64,000 bases of DNA from Clostridia bacterium (GTDB lineage Bacteria; Bacillota; Clostridia; Oscillospirales; Acutalibacteraceae). Both the position numbers and the translations under genes were made by a program. This document shows positions 56,597 to 64,000 of this stretch, piece by piece (positions within the stretch are counted from its first letter, which is position 1; the number at the start of each line of letters is the position of its first letter). The notes under the pieces were generated by a model. That model saw only the letters and a program-made list of their open reading frames with translations. It did no database searches and had not been told where the DNA came from. The stretch is from NCBI GenBank assembly GCA_017409845.1, contig JAFQRY010000002.1, positions 1 to 64,000 on the forward strand, written 5' to 3'.

Positions 56597-56624
56597 AAGG
56601 CACTCCGCAAGGGGTGCCTTCTCT
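56597..56624 (+). terminator. Terminator after lysS
   Basis: AAGGCACTCC / GGGGTGCCTT stem with one wobble, tetraloop GCAA, then T-rich CTCTGTTTT; starts 5 bases after the stop. Confidence 0.85.
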
Positions 56625-56647: not shown

Positions 56648-56676
56648 TTGACATTCTATATATAATATGTTACAAT
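56648..56676 (+). promoter_or_regulatory. Promoter of the radical SAM cluster
   Basis: TTGACA (56648-56653), 17-base spacer, TACAAT (56671-56676), 32 bases before the ATG at 56708. One mismatch to consensus in total. Confidence 0.85.
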
Positions 56677-56707: not shown

Positions 56708-58630
56708 ATGGAAAAGAAAAACATATATCTTGTTCAGCCGACTTTTATGAGCACATCGTCGGTCTATTTTCCGTATGCAATCGGTGCACTTGCTTCCTAT
56801 GCTTTCAATTTCAGGGATATCGAGGAAAATTACGAGCTGAAAGAAGTGTTTTTTCTTCGCGACAAAATTACTGACATCGTTTCCTCTCTTAAAAATCCCT
56901 TCCTTGTCGGTTTTTCAAACTACATATGGAATTATGAATATAACAAAATTCTTGCCTTTGAAGTAAAAAAAGCTTTCCCCGACTGCATAATTCTTTTCGG
57001 AGGTCAGCAGATTACCGAAAGCACCGACCTTCTCACGGAATGCCCGTTTATCGACATTCTTATGCATTTTGAAGGTGAGGTTCCTTTCAGAGATCTTCTC
57101 AGGGCATACATAAATAACACTTCGCTTGAAAGCGTTTCGAATATTTCTTTCCGCACATCTGAAAATGAAATTGTCACCACACCTTTTAAAGTATATGATG
57201 TTGCGGATTTCCCCTCCCCCTTTGCAAGCGGCTTTTTTGATATGCTTTGCGAAAAGCACCCGGAAATTGATTTTGTACCCCTTGTTGAAACAAACAGAGG
57301 CTGCCCCAACCGCTGTGCCTATTGCAGCTGGGGAATGATAAAATCAAAGGTGAGATTCTTTCCTCTTGAAAGAGTTTTTGCCGATATCGAATGGGCAAGC
57401 CGCAGGAAGCCGGGCTTTCTCGGAATTGCAGATGCTAATTTCGGCATGTTTGAAAGAGATGAAATCATAGCCGATAAAATTATCGAATGCAACAAAAAAT
57501 ACGGCTACCCGAAAAAATTCCAGGTTTCCTATTCAAAAGGCAACAAAGAAAGAGTTTTCCGCATAAGCAAAAAGCTCAATGAAATGGGAATGGATAAGGG
57601 TGTTACCCTTTCGTTTCAATCAATGTCGCCCGAGGTTCAGAAAAACATAGGCAGGTCAAACCTTGATATAGATGCCTACACGGCACTCCAGAAAAAATAC
57701 TCCGAAGAAGGTATTCCGACCTATACCGACCTTATTCTCGGTCTGCCGGGCGAAACCGTCGAAAGCTTCCGTAACGGAATTGACCGCCTTCTTGAGCTCG
57801 GTCAGCATAACTCGCTTTTCGTTCACCTGTGTGAATGGCTTCCGCTTGCCGAAATGGGCAGACGGGATTATATGGATAAACATAAAATCAGCTACAGCAG
57901 GATTCCGCTGAATCAGCCCCATGTCAGTGCACCGGAAAAAGACGATATATGCGAATATTCAAGAATCGTTACCTCCACCGCATCAATGACAACCGACGAC
58001 TGGAAAGAGATGGTTTTGTTTTCAACCTGCGTTCTTTGCTTTCATCATCTCGGTCTGCTTCAGTATGTTGCAATTTATCTTCACTTTGAAAACGGCATAC
58101 CCTACAGTGAGTTTTACGGCAATCTTCTGAGCTTTTTGCTCAACGAAGCCGAAAGTGATGTTTTCAGGGATATCAGAAACAGAATAAGCAGTGTCATAGA
58201 ATGCAACGCCGAGGCGGTTGTTTATGACGAAACCTTCGGCGATGCGGCATGGCCGTTTGAAGAATACGCATTTCTCAGAACCGTTTATGATATAGACAGC
58301 TTCTATAATGACATCAGACGGTTTATCGCAAGATATATAACTGATTCCGCTTTGCTCGGAGATTTGCTCTCATATCAGAAATTCGTTATAAAATCCGTAA
58401 ACGACAAGCCGCGTTCCGTTATGGCGGAGCATGACTGGAAAAGCTATTTCAGCAATATTCTTGCAGGCTCGGAATGCAGACCGCTTGAAACCAAAAAAGT
58501 CTGCTACAGCCTTCACGAACCGCAGGCCGTTCATTCATGGGCAGAATATGCACGCGAGGTTTTGTGGTATGGCAGAAGAGGCGGAAAAAACATATACACA
58601 TCAGAGATAAAAGAAGAAAAACAGAGTTGA
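56708..58630 (+). CDS. Cobalamin-binding-type radical SAM protein, paralogue 1
   Basis: 640 residues. N-terminal region (about 1-150) has a Rossmann-like B12-binding-domain pattern ending IILFGGQQ, without the DxHxxG motif. The radical SAM core starts at ETNRGCPNRCAYCSWG (Cys199, 203 and 206 for the 4Fe-4S cluster), followed by KSKVRFFPLERVFADIEW and ILGLPGETVESF. A C-terminal domain of about 200 residues (TSTASMTTDDWKEM, PFEEYAFLRTVY, WAEYAREVLWYGR) is shared with the neighbours. Family members often methylate or rearrange unactivated carbons; the substrate is unknown. ATG 56708 after GGAGGTG is chosen over GTG 56699. First gene of the cluster. Confidence 0.9.
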   Translation: MEKKNIYLVQPTFMSTSSVYFPYAIGALASYAFNFRDIEENYELKEVFFLRDKITDIVSSLKNPFLVGFSNYIWNYEYNKILAFEVKKAFPDCIILFGGQQITESTDLLTECPFIDILMHFEGEVPFRDLLRAYINNTSLESVSNISFRTSENEIVTTPFKVYDVADFPSPFASGFFDMLCEKHPEIDFVPLVETNRGCPNRCAYCSWGMIKSKVRFFPLERVFADIEWASRRKPGFLGIADANFGMFERDEIIADKIIECNKKYGYPKKFQVSYSKGNKERVFRISKKLNEMGMDKGVTLSFQSMSPEVQKNIGRSNLDIDAYTALQKKYSEEGIPTYTDLILGLPGETVESFRNGIDRLLELGQHNSLFVHLCEWLPLAEMGRRDYMDKHKISYSRIPLNQPHVSAPEKDDICEYSRIVTSTASMTTDDWKEMVLFSTCVLCFHHLGLLQYVAIYLHFENGIPYSEFYGNLLSFLLNEAESDVFRDIRNRISSVIECNAEAVVYDETFGDAAWPFEEYAFLRTVYDIDSFYNDIRRFIARYITDSALLGDLLSYQKFVIKSVNDKPRSVMAEHDWKSYFSNILAGSECRPLETKKVCYSLHEPQAVHSWAEYAREVLWYGRRGGKNIYTSEIKEEKQS

Positions 58631-58637
58631 TTCAGAT

Positions 58638-59357
58638 ATGAAGGATGAATACAGGCTGTCGGTGGTCTTCTGTGCCGTTGACGAAACCTATTCCCTTATT
58701 GATACCCATAAAAAAATCAGCAGCTTTGCTCTTGCGGATGAATATATTTTTATTCTTTCAAAAAAAGCAACCGAAGGCTGCATTGAAACCGTCAGAAATA
58801 TATGCGAAAAAAACAGCAATTGCAGCTTCCGTTTCCAGAGCGGAGCAGGTCTCGGTAATGCGATAAGAGACGGAATCCGGGCTGTCAGCGGAACACACAT
58901 GATAGTCTGGCCCGCAGATGACGGAATGGATACCTCAGCTTTCCCCGAAATGGTGCGTCTTTCAAAAGAAAACCCCGAAAAAATAATTTCGGTCAGCCGT
59001 TGGCTTGAAGACGGATGCTTTGAGGGCTACGGCAGAGTGCGTAAAATAATAAACTACTTTTCCCAAAAGCTGTTTGCTCTGCTTTATAACGCAAAGCTGA
59101 CAGATTTCACAAATCCCACGCAGATTGCTCCCGTGAATGTTTACCGAAAAATAAAATGGCAGGGTGAAAGATTCGATTTTGTGCCCGAAATGACCTTCAA
59201 GCCTCTGAGGCTCGGATGCGAATTCACGGAAGTGCCCTGCAAATATCAGAAAAGGCAGGAAGGCTCCTCCAACACAGTTATTACGGAACTGATTAAATAT
59301 TATTTTGTAATTTTCAAAATTCGTTGCATGGATGAAAGTGATTTGACTGTAAAATGA
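58638..59357 (+). CDS. Small GT2-like glycosyltransferase
   Basis: 239 residues resembling the dolichyl-phosphate-mannose-synthase group of family 2 glycosyltransferases. Visible features are LSVVFCAVDETYSL at the N-terminus, SGAGLGNAIRDGIRAVSGTHMIVWPADDGMD with the metal-binding ADD, and FDFVPEMTFKPLRLGCEFTEVPCKYQKRQEGSS, similar to the C-terminal end of the GT-A domain. There is no C-terminal membrane anchor. It starts 7 bases after paralogue 1 and its stop overlaps the start of paralogue 2 (ATGA). So a sugar-transfer step is embedded in the radical SAM operon; donor and acceptor are unknown. Confidence 0.85.
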   Translation: MKDEYRLSVVFCAVDETYSLIDTHKKISSFALADEYIFILSKKATEGCIETVRNICEKNSNCSFRFQSGAGLGNAIRDGIRAVSGTHMIVWPADDGMDTSAFPEMVRLSKENPEKIISVSRWLEDGCFEGYGRVRKIINYFSQKLFALLYNAKLTDFTNPTQIAPVNVYRKIKWQGERFDFVPEMTFKPLRLGCEFTEVPCKYQKRQEGSSNTVITELIKYYFVIFKIRCMDESDLTVK

Positions 59358-61285
59358 AAAATGTATATTTCATACAAGCGAATAATGTTTACGGCACCGA
59401 TAAAAAGAGTGCCTATATTCCCTATGCCGCAGGCTGCATTCAGGCCTACTGCCAAAAAAACGAAACAATCTCCGCCGAATACAATTTCGGCAGAATCATA
59501 TATAAAAGAGAAAATGCTCAGGCTGTTATTTCTCAGCTTGACAACCCGTATATGGTCCTTTTTTCATGCTCGGTATGGAACAAAGAATATAACAAGGTTA
59601 CTGCAGAGGCGATAAAGAAAGCCTTCCCCGACTGTTACATAACCTTCGGAGGTCACAGCGTTTCATCAGACGGAAAAGACCTTGAGGAATGCGGATATGT
59701 TGATTTCATAACCCACCGCTTCGGCGAAGAGCCGACCGAAGGTCTGCTCGAAAGCCTTGCAACGGGCAAGCCGCTGAGTGAGGTTGCAAATATTTCATTC
59801 AGAAACGAAAACGGTGAAATAATAACAACCGCCTTTGAGCCTCAGACGGGTACAGACTACCCCTCACCCTATCTTGAGGGCGTTTTTGATGATATCATGG
59901 ATGACGGAATAAGCTTTTCTGTTCTTCTTGAAACCAACAGAGGATGCCCGAATTCATGCTCCTTCTGCGACTGGGGCTCTCTCAAATCGAAGGTAAGACT
60001 CTTCCCTCTCGAAAGAGTTTTTGCCGAGATTGATTGGTTTGTTGAGCATAAAATCGAATTCATTTTCTGTGCAGACGGAAATTTCTGCCTTTTCAACCGC
60101 GATGCCGATATTGCGAATTACATAGTTTCCTGCAAGGAAAAATACGGCTATCCAAAGGTTTTCCGTGTGTGCTTCACCAAAAACAGATTTGATTTTGTTT
60201 TTGATATCGGAACGAAATTCTTCAGAAAAGGTCTTAACAAAGCTCAGACCATATCCTTTCAGAGTCTTGATGAGCAAGTGCTCGCAAATGTCGGAAGAAA
60301 GAATATTCCCATAGAATTTTTCAAAGACCTGATGAAAAAATATCAGGAAATGAATATCGCAACCTTCTCGGAGCTTATTCTCGGTCTGCCCGGTGAAACC
60401 TATGAAAGCTTCTGCAAAGGTGTGAGCATTCTTATTGAAAACGGCCAGCATTTTGCAATGAGTATTTATCCCTGCGACCTGCTGCCGAATTCATTGATGG
60501 GGCAGAAGGAATACAAGGAAAAATTTTCGATAGAGAGCACAAAGGTTCCCTTCAGGCTTATTCATTCAAACAGCTTTTATGACAACGAAGAAATAACGGA
60601 ATATAACGAGGTTGTCACCTCAACATATTCCATGAGCCGTGAGGAATGGGTTAAAGCCCTCATTTTCTCATATTATATTCAGGGGCTTCACAATCTCGGG
60701 CTGCTCCGCTGCGTTGCGGTTTATTGCTGTAACGAATACGCAGTCAGCTACGGTGATTTTTACAACATGCTTCTTGAATATTCCCGTAAAAACAAAAATA
60801 CCCTTCTCAACCGTGTTTTTTCAAAAACCGAAAAGCTCTGCACGGGTGTTGCGGAAAGCAAAAATGAATTCGTAACGGAATACGAAGGCACCGAGGGCAC
60901 TCTCTGGGGCTTTGATGAAGTTCTGTATCTCGATTTCTATAAAGAGCTTGATTTATTTTATAACGAAACAAAAGCTTTTGTCGAAGAAAGCTTCGGCACA
61001 AATGAGATTATCGGTCCGCTTTTCCGTTATCAGCATGATACAGTCAAAAAAATAAACCTGCCCGTGGTTGAAATCACTTCGGATTATGATTTTTATTCCT
61101 ATTTCAACGCAGTTTATTCAAATTCATACATGCCTCTTGAAAAGAAAAGCACCGCTTTGAAAATCCGTGACGATGCACCCGTTTCTTCCTTCTTTGAGTT
61201 TGCAAGAGAGGTTGTGTGGTACGGACGGAACACAAGAGCAAGCGATTACACAAGCACAAATTATGATATCGAAATTCTGAAATAA
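59354..61285 (+). CDS. Cobalamin-binding-type radical SAM protein, paralogue 2
   Basis: 643 residues with the same architecture as the other three: N-terminal YIPYAAGCIQAYC and CYITFGGHSVS (B12-domain-like), cluster motif CPNSCSFCDWG (Cys198, 202, 205), KSKVRLFPLERVFAEIDW, ELILGLPGETYESF, then VVTSTYSMSREEWVKAL and FFEFAREVVWYGR at the end. It departs most in details: the stretch HHLGL is HNLGL here and the substrate-side segment IYPCDLLPNSLMG replaces the CEWLPxxxMG of paralogues 1 and 3. That suggests a different substrate or reaction. The start overlaps the glycosyltransferase stop by 4 bases. Confidence 0.9.
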   Translation: MKNVYFIQANNVYGTDKKSAYIPYAAGCIQAYCQKNETISAEYNFGRIIYKRENAQAVISQLDNPYMVLFSCSVWNKEYNKVTAEAIKKAFPDCYITFGGHSVSSDGKDLEECGYVDFITHRFGEEPTEGLLESLATGKPLSEVANISFRNENGEIITTAFEPQTGTDYPSPYLEGVFDDIMDDGISFSVLLETNRGCPNSCSFCDWGSLKSKVRLFPLERVFAEIDWFVEHKIEFIFCADGNFCLFNRDADIANYIVSCKEKYGYPKVFRVCFTKNRFDFVFDIGTKFFRKGLNKAQTISFQSLDEQVLANVGRKNIPIEFFKDLMKKYQEMNIATFSELILGLPGETYESFCKGVSILIENGQHFAMSIYPCDLLPNSLMGQKEYKEKFSIESTKVPFRLIHSNSFYDNEEITEYNEVVTSTYSMSREEWVKALIFSYYIQGLHNLGLLRCVAVYCCNEYAVSYGDFYNMLLEYSRKNKNTLLNRVFSKTEKLCTGVAESKNEFVTEYEGTEGTLWGFDEVLYLDFYKELDLFYNETKAFVEESFGTNEIIGPLFRYQHDTVKKINLPVVEITSDYDFYSYFNAVYSNSYMPLEKKSTALKIRDDAPVSSFFEFAREVVWYGRNTRASDYTSTNYDIEILK

Positions 61286-61303
61286 TCGAAAGGAGTGCGG
61301 ATT

Positions 61304-63214
61304 TTGAAAAAAAGGCTTTATTTCTTTCAGGTTAATTATCCCTACGGCAAATCCGCACATATTCCTTATACTGCGGGTCAGCTTGCCGCATACGCCTTTG
61401 AGGATAAAGATATATCCGAAAACTATACCCTTGAGGATATATTCTTTCTGAGAGAAAATCCCGCAAAGGTCATGGCAAAAATCGAAAATCCGTTTATGGT
61501 TGCATTTTCAACATATATCTGGAACTGCAACTATAACAAAACACTTGCAAGACTTATCAAAGAAAAATATCCTGCCTGCATCATCGTTTTCGGCGGACAT
61601 CATGTTTCGCCCGAAGGCGATATGCTTGAAGAGTGTCCGTATATCGACTACCTTCTTCACGGTGAGGGTGAAATCATTTTCAGACGGCTGATGCGTGCCG
61701 CAATCGGTCTTGAGAATGCCTGTGCAATTCCCGGAATATCGCTCCGCACGGAAAACGGAATTCTTACCAATCCCGAAATGATATCGGAGGAATGCAATTT
61801 TCCCTCTCCTTATCTCGGCGGATATTTTGACAAGCTTTTAAAAGAAAATCCCGACACCGAGTTTCTCGGTCTTATCGAAACTTCACGCGGCTGCCCGAAT
61901 TCATGTGCATACTGTGACTGGAGCAACATGAAATCAAAAATCCGCAAGTTCCCCATCGAACGCATTTACGGCGAAATCGACTGGATGAAGGATAACAAGA
62001 TATTCATATTCGGCTCGGCAGATTCCAATTTCGGCATGTTTGAGCGTGATGAAGAAATAACCGACAGAATCGTTGCCGCAAAAAAAGAAACTGGCTACCC
62101 CGCAAGATTTCAGACCTCCTATGCAAAAAACAGCACAAAAAGAGTTTTTGATATCGGACTTAAGCTCGAAAGAAATGACCTCAACAGAGGCATCACCCTT
62201 TCGTTTCAGTCGATGAGCGACGAGGTTCTGAAAAACATATGCAGAGAAAACATCAGCATTGAATATTATTCCGAGCTTATGAAGCTTTACAACGATGCGG
62301 GCATCGCAACCTATACAGAGCTTATTCTCGGTTTGCCCGGTGAAACAACAGAAAGCATCGTTGACGGCATTGACAAGCTTCTCATGCTCGGTCAGCATAA
62401 TTCAATTTATATCCACAACTGCGAATGGCTCCCCTGCTCTATCATGGGCAGAAAGGATTATGTTGAGCGATTCGGAATAAAAACAAGCCGCATTCCTCTC
62501 AACCAGCCTCACCGCGAGCCTGACGAGGATGACATTATTCCCGAGCAGTCAATGGTTGTTACATCAACCTGTTCCATGAGCAGCGAGGATTGGAAAAGCA
62601 TGAATCTTTTCTGCTGCACGGTGCAGGCATTCCATCACATGGGACTCCTCATGTTTTTCGCCCTTTATCTTTACGGCGAAGGACTTTGTTCATATAAAAA
62701 ATTCTACACCGCCCTTCTCTCTCATTTTCTTTCAGACCCCGACACGGTTGCGGGAAAAGCAATAAAATCCGTTGACGGTTTTCTCAATTCCGTTCTGAGA
62801 GAAGAGGGCACTCTCAGCTGTGCAGACAAAAGATTCGGCAATGTTCAATGGCCGTTTGAAGAATACGCTTACCTCTGCACGGTCTATGAGCTCGACAAAT
62901 TCTACGACGAAATATCGGATTTTCTCTCAGGCTTCGGCATAGAGAAAGAAATTTTTACAGAGCTTATGAATTTCCAGAAAAACATGATGAAAAGACCCTT
63001 TGATGACAAAAAAGAAATCAGGGTCGGCTATAATTTCATCGGATATTTCAACGATATAATGAACGGCAGAAAAGCTGTTCTCAGAAAAGAAGAATCCGTT
63101 ATCCGAATCAACGCAAAGGCATTTGAAAGCTGGAGCGAATTTGCAAGAGTCATTGCATGGTACGGAAGAAAAAACGGAGCGGCAACCTATCTTAAAGAAG
63201 CGGAAAAGGAGTGA
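61304..63214 (+). CDS. Cobalamin-binding-type radical SAM protein, paralogue 3
   Basis: 636 residues, same layout: HIPYTAGQLAAYAF, IIVFGGHHVSP, CPNSCAYCDWS (Cys197, 201, 204), KSKIRKFPIERIYGEIDW, ELILGLPGETTESI, CEWLPCSIMGRKDYVERFG, TSTCSMSSEDWKSM and SEFARVIAWYGRKNG. Closest by eye to paralogue 1 (both have FSxYIWNxxYNKxLA and IPLNQPH). TTG 61304 is used as start because AAAGGAG at 61289-61295 then has 8-base spacing; GTG 61295 overlaps that site. Gap to paralogue 2 is 18 bases, to paralogue 4 only 5 bases. Confidence 0.9.
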   Translation: MKKRLYFFQVNYPYGKSAHIPYTAGQLAAYAFEDKDISENYTLEDIFFLRENPAKVMAKIENPFMVAFSTYIWNCNYNKTLARLIKEKYPACIIVFGGHHVSPEGDMLEECPYIDYLLHGEGEIIFRRLMRAAIGLENACAIPGISLRTENGILTNPEMISEECNFPSPYLGGYFDKLLKENPDTEFLGLIETSRGCPNSCAYCDWSNMKSKIRKFPIERIYGEIDWMKDNKIFIFGSADSNFGMFERDEEITDRIVAAKKETGYPARFQTSYAKNSTKRVFDIGLKLERNDLNRGITLSFQSMSDEVLKNICRENISIEYYSELMKLYNDAGIATYTELILGLPGETTESIVDGIDKLLMLGQHNSIYIHNCEWLPCSIMGRKDYVERFGIKTSRIPLNQPHREPDEDDIIPEQSMVVTSTCSMSSEDWKSMNLFCCTVQAFHHMGLLMFFALYLYGEGLCSYKKFYTALLSHFLSDPDTVAGKAIKSVDGFLNSVLREEGTLSCADKRFGNVQWPFEEYAYLCTVYELDKFYDEISDFLSGFGIEKEIFTELMNFQKNMMKRPFDDKKEIRVGYNFIGYFNDIMNGRKAVLRKEESVIRINAKAFESWSEFARVIAWYGRKNGAATYLKEAEKE

Positions 63215-63219
63215 ATGAA

Positions 63220-64000
63220 ATGAGCAAAAAGAAAATATATCCCGTTCAGATTGCCATATCATATTCATCCCCATGCTTTCTGCCCTATTCAATGGGCTGC
63301 ATCGCCGCATATCTGAAAAACGATACGGAAATCATGCAGGAATACGAAATCTGTGATGTTACCGTCATGCGTGAAACCATCCCCGATATCATAAAGCGGT
63401 TTGATAATCCTTATATTGTAGCCTTCACCAATTTTGTCTGGAATCTTGAATATAACAAAGCCCTTGCAAAAGAGCTCAAAAAGCTTTATCCCGAGGTGAA
63501 AATCATCTTCGGCGGTCACAGCGTACCTCCGGATGCATCATTCCTCGAAAAATATGATTTTATTGATTATCTCATGCACAACGAAGGCGAAGAAACCTTT
63601 TCACTTTTGCTCAAGGCACTTGCAAGCGGCGAAGATTTGAACTCTGTGCCAAACCTTTCATTCAGAAGCGGTGAAGAATATGTAACAACCGCAGAATATC
63701 ATCCTGCAGACATTTCATCCTATCCCTCACCGTATACAGAAGGCATTTTCGACCATCTTCTCGAAGAATTCCCGGACATTGAATTTCATGCAACCCTTGA
63801 AACAAACAGAGGCTGTCCCTATGCGTGTGCCTATTGTGAATGGTGCTTCACACGCAGAATCAGAGAATTCCCCATCGAGAAAATCAAAGCGGAAATTGAA
63901 TGGATTGCAAAAAACAAAATCAGATACTGCTACTGTGCCGATGCGAATTTCGGTATTCTTGAAAGAGATGTTGAAATCGCGGAATATGTTGCAAAGCAGA
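63220..64000 (+). CDS. Cobalamin-binding-type radical SAM protein, paralogue 4 (3' end cut by window)
   Basis: 260 codons visible, then the window ends. Same family: FLPYSMGCIAAYL, VKIIFGGHSVPP, and CPYACAYCEWC (Cys199, 203, 206) followed by TRRIREFPIEKIKAEIEW, which lacks the KSK triplet found in the other three and has an extra cysteine after the cluster motif. These differences mark it as the most divergent of the four. ATG 63220 has AAAAGGAG upstream at normal spacing. The cluster therefore continues beyond the window and may hold more members. Confidence 0.88.
   Translation, partial: MSKKKIYPVQIAISYSSPCFLPYSMGCIAAYLKNDTEIMQEYEICDVTVMRETIPDIIKRFDNPYIVAFTNFVWNLEYNKALAKELKKLYPEVKIIFGGHSVPPDASFLEKYDFIDYLMHNEGEETFSLLLKALASGEDLNSVPNLSFRSGEEYVTTAEYHPADISSYPSPYTEGIFDHLLEEFPDIEFHATLETNRGCPYACAYCEWCFTRRIREFPIEKIKAEIEWIAKNKIRYCYCADANFGILERDVEIAEYVAKQ

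Follow-up and report, generated by a model that had tools for sequence, protein, structure and literature searches.

A tandem array of TokK-like cobalamin radical SAM paralogues in a Clostridial genome, with a possible role in C-methylation of a heptose-derived surface sugar

Background

Knowledge of cobalamin-dependent radical S-adenosylmethionine (SAM) methylases comes mainly from antibiotics, hopanoids and methanogens. One such enzyme, MoeK5, acts on a lipid-linked sugar unit. Three-component glycan decoration systems are built from a GT2 glycosyltransferase for an undecaprenyl-phosphate sugar, a flippase and a GT-C transferase. The subject of this report is a head-to-tail array of four genes for putative cobalamin radical SAM (rSAM) enzymes, with a GT2 gene embedded in it, at the 3′ end of a 64,000-nucleotide stretch of Clostridia bacterium DNA (Acutalibacteraceae; assembly GCA_017409845.1, contig JAFQRY010000002.1, positions 1 to 64,000 of the forward strand), referred to below as the window. 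This window covers the initial 64 kb of contig C8, which is 168,939 bases long and belongs to a draft genome of 2.53 Mb (96% complete). Because relatives mix and match this enzyme set beside heptose genes, the array probably adds carbon branches to a surface sugar. The reading favoured here, with a rough probability of 0.55, is that its members would methylate a GDP-heptose-derived, polyprenyl-linked surface sugar in succession, each at a specific carbon, with the enzyme set reshuffled between species.

The closest described enzymes are TokK and CysS. According to excerpts of PMC13331322 and PMC12846815, TokK Trp76 (Trp75 in CysS) is the residue under the cobalt, at its lower-axial face, and TokK W215 is said, in the available part of PMC9692996, to hold SAM and cobalamin together. 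CysS contacts its substrate through Trp188, Trp271, Leu272 and Ser273, while Trp206 and Phe238 crowd it (PMC12846815, same excerpt). Several such genes in one cluster are not new in themselves, since the asparenomycin cluster contains two others besides TokK, whose function is given as unknown (PMC8992657, in excerpt). In Campylobacter jejuni, Cj1427 is a GDP-heptose C4-dehydrogenase that makes a 4-keto sugar in capsule synthesis (PMC10680097 and PMC7949155, both in excerpt).

Anatomy of the array

The features are as follows; positions beyond the window are given in the coordinates of locus L001, and OG numbers denote the lineages defined below.

56597..56620, + strand: terminator-like stem-loop, 3′ of lysS and 5′ of the array (L001:598-621; by consensus only)
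56648..56676, + strand: promoter-like TTGACA-17-TACAAT, 5′ of the array (one match against 0.01 expected per window; by consensus only)
56708..58630, + strand: rSAM paralogue C8a, 640 aa, lineage OG9, TokK/CysS-like cobalamin radical SAM protein
58638..59357, + strand: GT2, 239 aa, dolichol-phosphate-mannose-synthase/ArnC-like, without membrane helix (hydropathy) and without the first Asp of DxD
59354..61285, + strand: rSAM paralogue C8b, 643 aa, lineage OG4
61295..63214, + strand: rSAM paralogue C8c, 639 aa, lineage OG5
63211..64000, + strand, ending at L001:9143: rSAM paralogue C8d, 643 aa, lineage OG2, of which the window holds the first 263 residues
L001:9154-9894, outside the window: second GT2, 31% identical to the first

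All six genes of the array (C8a, GT2, C8b, C8c, C8d and the second GT2) are on the + strand, spaced by +7, -4, +9, -4 and +10 bases. The initial annotation, made from the sequence alone, had described four rSAM genes of the same architecture lying head to tail, gaps and overlaps of a few bases, and a 4-base overlap coupling the GT2 to the second rSAM gene, all of which is borne out: the reading frames are recovered, C8a-C8d are 36.9-45.0% identical in pairs, and their Radical_SAM matches are far beyond chance. Extension of the contig completes the fourth rSAM gene, after which the second GT2 follows, so that the "at least four" paralogues of that annotation become exactly four on this contig; four more lie elsewhere in the genome (C4a, C4b and C4c on contig C4, and one on C10), and all eight are 36-47% identical in pairs. 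The proposed promoter sequence is recovered, but a looser promoter scan of the array region returned 22 sites as against 22.8 in shuffles, which is no excess. The genome has two cobalamin riboswitches.

Enzyme family and probable chemistry

C8a, C8b and C8c match Pfam Radical_SAM with 52.1, 51.5 and 52.2 bits (cut-off 29.5; E 1e-13 to 1.7e-13), and the whole C8d gene scores 38 bits. The CxxxCxxC motif is present in all eight paralogues of this genome and starts at residues 199, 198, 200 and 202 of C8a-C8d, close to the predicted 197-206. A profile of the eight paralogues matches TokK (PDB 7kdx) with E 3e-139, from profile position 21 to 587 of 641 and TokK residue 21 to 609 of 681, the C-terminal domain included; its match to CysS (9n1b; E 5.7e-78) stops at CysS residue 476 of 645. 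The next matches are near 1e-8: AprD4 (E 8.5e-9), the unnamed rSAM protein 9ccb and OxsB (E 4.9e-8). In a set of 214 homologues, used for residue counts, contact columns and the tree (it omits some genes that overlap longer frames), the three cluster cysteines are kept in 214/214. Trp 74 of C8a, which aligns with TokK W76 and CysS Trp75, is kept in 212 of the 214, and the Trp two residues past the last cluster Cys, which aligns with TokK W215, in 211. The Pfam B12-binding cut-off (32.1) is exceeded by C8c (38.5) and C8d (43.2). As judged by these alignments, C8a-C8d are TokK/CysS-type cobalamin rSAM enzymes and full-length relatives of that group.

The best NCBIfam model for all four window rSAM proteins is NF033712, the KedN5 family (134.9-244.5 bits, the lowest being that of the cut C8d). 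Membership of that family was rejected: the scores are far below its cut-off of 700, and the match ends at residue 361-392 in the three complete proteins.

By analogy with TokK and CysS, the array enzymes very probably methylate. The initial annotation had allowed for C-methylations or ring changes; of these methylation is favoured and ring chemistry is the less likely, since TokK and CysS, the nearest relatives with solved structures, are C-methylases. That the array might instead perform some other radical chemistry on a sugar (ring contraction, dehydration, epimerisation or C-C coupling), as do OxsB and AprD4 with the same two domains, would accord with the weak matches of these two proteins to the profile and with the several chemistries known in the group (PMC8992657, in excerpt). 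The strength of the TokK match through the C-terminal domain, the CysS match and the retention of both TokK Trp positions argue against such chemistry, and render it very unlikely.

Lineages of the paralogues

All reading frames of loci L001-L100 yielded 226 full rSAM domains, of which 220 were kept after six copies at ≥97% identity had been dropped; fragments shorter than 520 profile columns were excluded. Grouped at 50% average identity, the 220 domains form 56 lineages. (Some loci are pieces of the same contigs, namely L025/L087, L029/L088-L089, L027/L034 and L057/L064, and locus counts are to that extent dependent.) The eight copies of this genome fall in eight different lineages: C8a in OG9, C8b in OG4, C8c in OG5, C8d in OG2, C4a in OG7, C4b in OG10, C4c in OG1 and the C10 copy in OG6. 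Each has a best relative of 63-86% identity, whereas paralogues within the genome are at most 47% identical to each other. Of the 223 pairs of domains that sit in one locus, counted over 96 loci, none belong to the same lineage (with shuffled labels the mean is 10.9 and the lowest of 1000 shuffles is 3). For 180 of 182 array members the nearest relative sits in another locus. FastTree, run on the 214-homologue set, gives support of 93-100 to OG1, 4, 5, 6, 7, 8, 9 and 10; support for OG2 is just 8, and OG3, 14, 18 and 20 are not single clades among the 25 largest groups. The paralogues are old, separate lineages. Two of the lineages, OG8 and OG4, also occur as natural fusions, joined in single open reading frames of 1271-1290 aa (L044:10864-14724, L050:12632-16504 and L052:1-3816), the fusions being 53-83% identical to one another when compared by halves.

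Lineage differences extend to the presumptive active site. Columns corresponding to the CysS substrate contacts were mapped onto the 214 homologues through the profile alignment rather than a structure. At those aligned with CysS 188, 238, 271, 272 and 273 the residues differ between lineages; column 271, for example, is Arg in 28/28 OG1, Lys in 21/21 OG2, Gln in 12/12 OG5 and Gln in 6/6 OG9 members. In each varying column, 7 to 11 of the 12 larger lineages have one residue in ≥90% of members. The lineage information held by the four direct contact columns is reached by a fraction of 0.00035 of random column sets (0.00005 within the rSAM domain), and that of all six mapped columns, W206 included, by 0.011 (0.0024). 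In C8a the lineage-specific columns fall at residues 190 and 272-274. Lineage specificity is higher in the contact columns than in random ones, which supports separate substrates or positions of action for the lineages, without telling which.

These results bear on the possibility that the array copies serve gene dosage, or are drifting duplicates that lack functions of their own. A true local triplication in genome G552, and perhaps a duplication in G584, speak for it. Against it stand the absence of same-lineage pairs, the identity of orthologues as compared with paralogues, and the lineage-specific contact residues. The dosage reading was rejected on lineage separation and contact residues; it is largely refuted and retains almost no credence, in agreement with the initial annotation, which had set dosage aside.

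A dedicated GT2

The GT2 family profile (26 rows) matches dolichol-phosphate mannose synthase (5mlz) over residues 5-233 with E 7.7e-25, and ArnC with E 3.7e-13. A membrane-type hydrophobic stretch is absent from the window GT2, and 22 of the 26 rows have none over 1.6.

Co-occurrence was counted with one genome per species, and the Fisher tests ignore kinship. In the family sample, 15 of 150 genomes, the query included, carry the rSAM profile at E ≤ 1e-60 (up to eight candidates were scored per genome, and copy numbers are lower bounds); in the genus sample of 45 genomes, 27 carry between three and eight copies and the other 18 carry none. The GT2 is present in 14/15 rSAM-positive and 0/135 rSAM-negative family genomes, and in 27/27 rSAM-positive and 0/18 rSAM-negative congeneric genomes; in 24 of the 27 congeners an rSAM gene of this family is no more than 400 bases away from it. 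The sole rSAM-positive family genome without it is G013 (280 contigs, 82% complete). A phylum sample of 398 genomes (two of them of this family, up to three candidates scored in each) returned the rSAM profile in one, the query.

It is fairly probable that the GT2 loads the heptose-pathway sugar, or its product, onto polyprenyl phosphate.

A wider scan of contigs, in which the best 80 of 346 relative-encoding places were kept, gave 74 loci. Among the matches listed, most are metagenome-assembled genomes of Clostridia, many of them from the ruminant gut by title; distant relatives among them (30-35% identity) are from Desulfobacteraceae, Omnitrophota, Planctomycetota, Patescibacteria, Proteobacteria, a record named Kuenenia, and Streptomyces. 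The 27 rSAM-positive congeners have 14 different lineage sets, and the seven genomes of ≥90% completeness have seven. Since 20 of the 27 miss the marks of 90% completeness and 5% contamination (the other seven pass), an absent lineage may be an absent contig.

Heptose genes and the sugar

Genes recurrent beside the rSAM arrays encode an HddA-like kinase, an HddC-GmhB-like fusion, a small cupin, a nucleotide-sugar dehydrogenase/epimerase and an RmlD-like reductase, as well as two other B12 rSAM families of ~610 and 493 residues. Lineage OG1 is the heptose-linked one: the HddC-GmhB fusion is in 16/28 OG1 loci as against 2/68 other rSAM loci, HddA in 16/28 as against 6/68, and the cupin in 18/28 as against 2/68. 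The fusion is matched in 23/27 rSAM-positive and 0/18 rSAM-negative congeners. Three of the 23 matches cover the first half only (G573 and G574, beside OG1, and G552); the one in G552 sits in an 801-residue frame and is probably another protein. Without G552, the genomes with HddC-GmhB are exactly the 22 congeners that carry OG1. In the family sample HddA is found in 10/15 rSAM-positive and 2/135 rSAM-negative genomes.

Contig C4 encodes an epimerase-like protein whose match to PDB 6vo6/6vo8 has E 6.3e-106; these entries, labelled putative epimerase/dehydratase in the PDB, we take to be Cj1427. The heptose kinase profile matches 3k85 (E 7.5e-55) and 4n3o (E 3.8e-53), structures labelled heptose kinase, and two PDB entries named putative sugar kinase outscore both. 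The names HddA, HddC and GmhB rest on similarity, because the Clostridial representatives miss the NCBIfam cut-offs (136.8, 72.6 and 136.4 bits against 600, 300 and 149.6, respectively). Two loci from other phyla, each with one TokK-like gene in a cluster of this kind, lend support, although they were chosen for their look-alike neighbourhoods rather than as a survey: L070 (Planctomycetota; HddA 411 bits, HddC 251 bits and a split transketolase) and L080 (Betaproteobacteria; GmhB 203.7 bits against a cut-off of 178, HddC 166 bits).

Relatives join what this genome keeps apart. In G564 (L032, L133) one stretch carries the kinase, cupin, HddC-GmhB, OG1, 5, 2, 6, GT2, the Cj1427-like gene, OG7 and OG10, and in each of G556, G560, G561, G564 and G569 a single contig holds OG1, 5, 2, 6, 7 and 10 with GT2 and heptose genes. 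The order in L008 and L040 is Cj1427-like gene, cupin, OG9, GT2, OG8, OG4, OG1, membrane protein, then HddA. The four lineages of the window lie beside heptose genes in 2/6, 5/14, 6/13 and 7/22 loci, many of the loci being short. This linkage suggests that the substrate is probably a sugar of the heptose pathway, and the likely product would be a surface glycan.

In several loci a D-2-hydroxyacid dehydrogenase gene lies 5′ of the heptose kinase (L032:4447-5391 and orthologues); it might serve the 2-oxoglutarate/2-hydroxyglutarate couple of Cj1427-type enzymes.

Other substrates have to be weighed against heptose, beginning with what lies downstream of the array. After the second GT2 come about 427 bases that contain a separate promoter-like site and eight short open reading frames of 19-47 aa. 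Beyond this gap lie genes for two GT2s, for an ABC-2 permease plus ATPase of Wzm/Wzt or TagGH kind and for a D-ribitol-5-phosphate cytidylyltransferase (362 bits; cut-off 166), together with an alcohol-dehydrogenase-like gene, a further GT2 and transferases resembling TarL, TarF and TarB. The same enzymes might therefore act on another surface-polymer sugar, such as that of a ribitol-phosphate teichoic-type polymer encoded by the downstream genes, the heptose linkage then being only partly relevant; the five rSAM-positive congeners that lack both OG1 and a convincing HddC-GmhB fusion are consistent with a non-heptose sugar. Against a teichoic sugar, the gap and its promoter-like site part the two gene groups, and among 17 neighbour clusters found in at least four loci (10 of the 17 were scanned against families) heptose genes were recognised and teichoic ones were not. 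The downstream genes were on these grounds rejected as part of the conserved system, and a non-heptose substrate appears unlikely.

Arrays of OG11, 12, 17 and 18 (L023, L033, L045 and L093; partial in L016) adjoin a protein of 816-829 aa with a weak match to the HddA profile. It is perhaps fucokinase-like, which suggests a different sugar in those species.

The sugar genes might also serve glycosylation alone, in which case the array would make a diffusible, small-molecule natural product or would methylate a lipid or peptide. TokK, ThnK and CysS are natural-product enzymes, the asparenomycin cluster offers a precedent for multiple TokK-like genes (PMC8992657, in excerpt), and the nearest NCBIfam models include methylases of ribosomally synthesised and post-translationally modified peptides (RiPPs). 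Within the array a precursor peptide would find no room, the gaps being ≤10 bases; the eight short open reading frames noted above lie in the gap after the second GT2. No nonribosomal peptide synthetase, polyketide synthase or carrier protein was recognised among the recurrent neighbour clusters, a search that left the large proteins of L008, L020, L050 and L053 unscanned. Such a role for the array is more improbable still than the other radical chemistries considered above. Single genes beside a RiPP or tRNA pathway, or a standard known cluster, which the initial annotation had named as telling against its proposal, were not encountered in what was examined. That proposal, of successive reactions on a glycan or lipid-linked sugar, is supported by the lineages, the contact residues, the exclusive co-occurrence with GT2 and the linkage with GDP-heptose genes.

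Proposed pathway

In successive C-methylation of a heptose-derived surface sugar, the kinase, phosphatase and guanylyltransferase would generate GDP-D-glycero-manno-heptose, which the Cj1427-like dehydrogenase probably converts to the 4-keto form. Each array member would then methylate its own position, acting either on the sugar while it is nucleotide-bound or on the polyprenyl-phosphate-linked form that GT2 makes (methylation may come before or after loading), and the methylated product would be incorporated into a surface glycan. With the mechanism carried over from TokK and CysS, each enzyme would hold cobalamin over a Trp (residue 74 in C8a); one SAM would give its methyl group to cob(I)alamin, and a second, at the [4Fe-4S] cluster of CxxxCxxC, would bring about removal of hydrogen from an unactivated carbon, at which the methyl group is placed.

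An extension, offered tentatively and as doubtful in its full form, is a combinatorial C-methylation code on surface glycans. Gut Clostridia would draw three to eight of the 56 TokK-like lineages, together with a polyprenyl-phosphate GT2, to act on heptose (in some species on another sugar), and swapped methylases would yield different patterns of carbon branches. Such swapping would resemble the swapping of glycosyltransferases for serotype change in other bacteria, and the fused OG8-OG4 pairs would be two successive steps in one chain.

Several observations weigh against the proposed pathway. The solved relatives do not act on a sugar: the substrate of TokK is a carbapenam and that of CysS is pantetheine-tailed. 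C8a (22.3) and C8b (19.5) fall below the Pfam B12-binding cut-off of 32.1. GT2 activity is not certain, because the first Asp of DxD is missing in 23/26 rows, that of the window included; it is present in the GT2 of L017, L032 and L046, and the second Asp in 26/26. The column aligned with CysS W206 is invariant, being Trp in all twelve larger lineages. The strict one-copy rule is broken in G552 by a local triplication of lineage OG18 (L117:1671-7900; 60-73% identity), and perhaps by a second same-lineage duplication in G584 that is cut by a contig end. The heptose genes of this genome sit on C4, with OG1, 7 and 10, and not on the array contig. Five of the 15 rSAM-positive family genomes lack HddA, and G551, G552, G558, G580 and G584, all rSAM-positive, lack OG1 and a convincing HddC-GmhB. 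Another sugar must therefore serve there, and the five OG1-less congeners, which use lineages such as OG11, 12, 18, 46 and 47, presumably use one.

Neighbouring families in relatives

Two further B12 radical SAM families, and a membrane protein family, were seen near the arrays of relatives. One rSAM family (~490 aa, ApyD/BchE-like) has four consecutive genes next to a pair of multi-helix membrane proteins from the TM7 family (L029:3736-9855, the same contig as L088:4804-10923). The other (~610 aa, TIGR03975-like) flanks the GT2 on both sides in L034, L036, L058, L065 and L090. The TM7 membrane family (~390-450 aa; L003:5791-7014) has invariant D52, G56, D138, D360 and R363 in L040 numbering, and four copies stand in a row in L007:16510-21550. 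Searches of this family against Pfam and the PDB gave no match; it is possibly a GT-C-type transferase.

Comparison with known systems

With three-component glycan decoration the locus shares a soluble GT2 of the dolichol-phosphate-mannose-synthase/ArnC type and, nearby in relatives, a recurring multi-helix protein family; it differs in that this membrane family is without a Pfam or PDB match, its role being a guess. The capsular heptose pathway of C. jejuni (HddA, HddC, GmhB, Cj1427, Cj1430 and Cj1428) has its counterparts here in the HddA-like kinase, the HddC-GmhB-like fusion and the dehydrogenase matching 6vo6/6vo8, but the excerpted text of PMC10680097 describes no radical SAM step in it. 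MoeK5 (moenomycin) and GenK/GenD1 (gentamicin) are alike in being cobalamin rSAM methylases of sugar-containing antibiotics, a likeness drawn from their description in the excerpt of PMC8992657; they differ in belonging to antibiotic clusters.

Broad word searches of the open-licence literature, with subscription papers outside their scope, found neither a GT2-coupled rSAM array nor a radical SAM methylase with a part in making heptose or surface glycans; the enzyme type is known, and the array system is without a description found in that literature. If the proposed function is correct, C-methylation of unactivated heptose carbons would be new glycan chemistry, and the lineages would offer a great many naturally occurring enzyme variants, with active sites particular to each lineage, for regiospecific C-H methylation. 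Rumen and gut bacteria would then have a surface trait that depends on vitamin B12 and that phages and hosts may read.

Likeness is greatest to TokK and CysS (PMC12846815, PMC13331322 and PMC9692996, in excerpt), with which the array proteins share the profile match, CxxxCxxC, the equivalents of W76 and W215 and a cobalamin domain that passes the Pfam cut-off in C8c and C8d, and, through TokK, the C-terminal domain. TokK and ThnK, the carbapenem C6 methylases, and CysS, of cystobactamid synthesis (the sequence comparison being with TokK and CysS), are natural-product enzymes that act on a carbapenam or a pantetheine-tailed substrate. Unlike them, the array assembles several lineages beside a polyprenyl-type GT2 and GDP-heptose genes.

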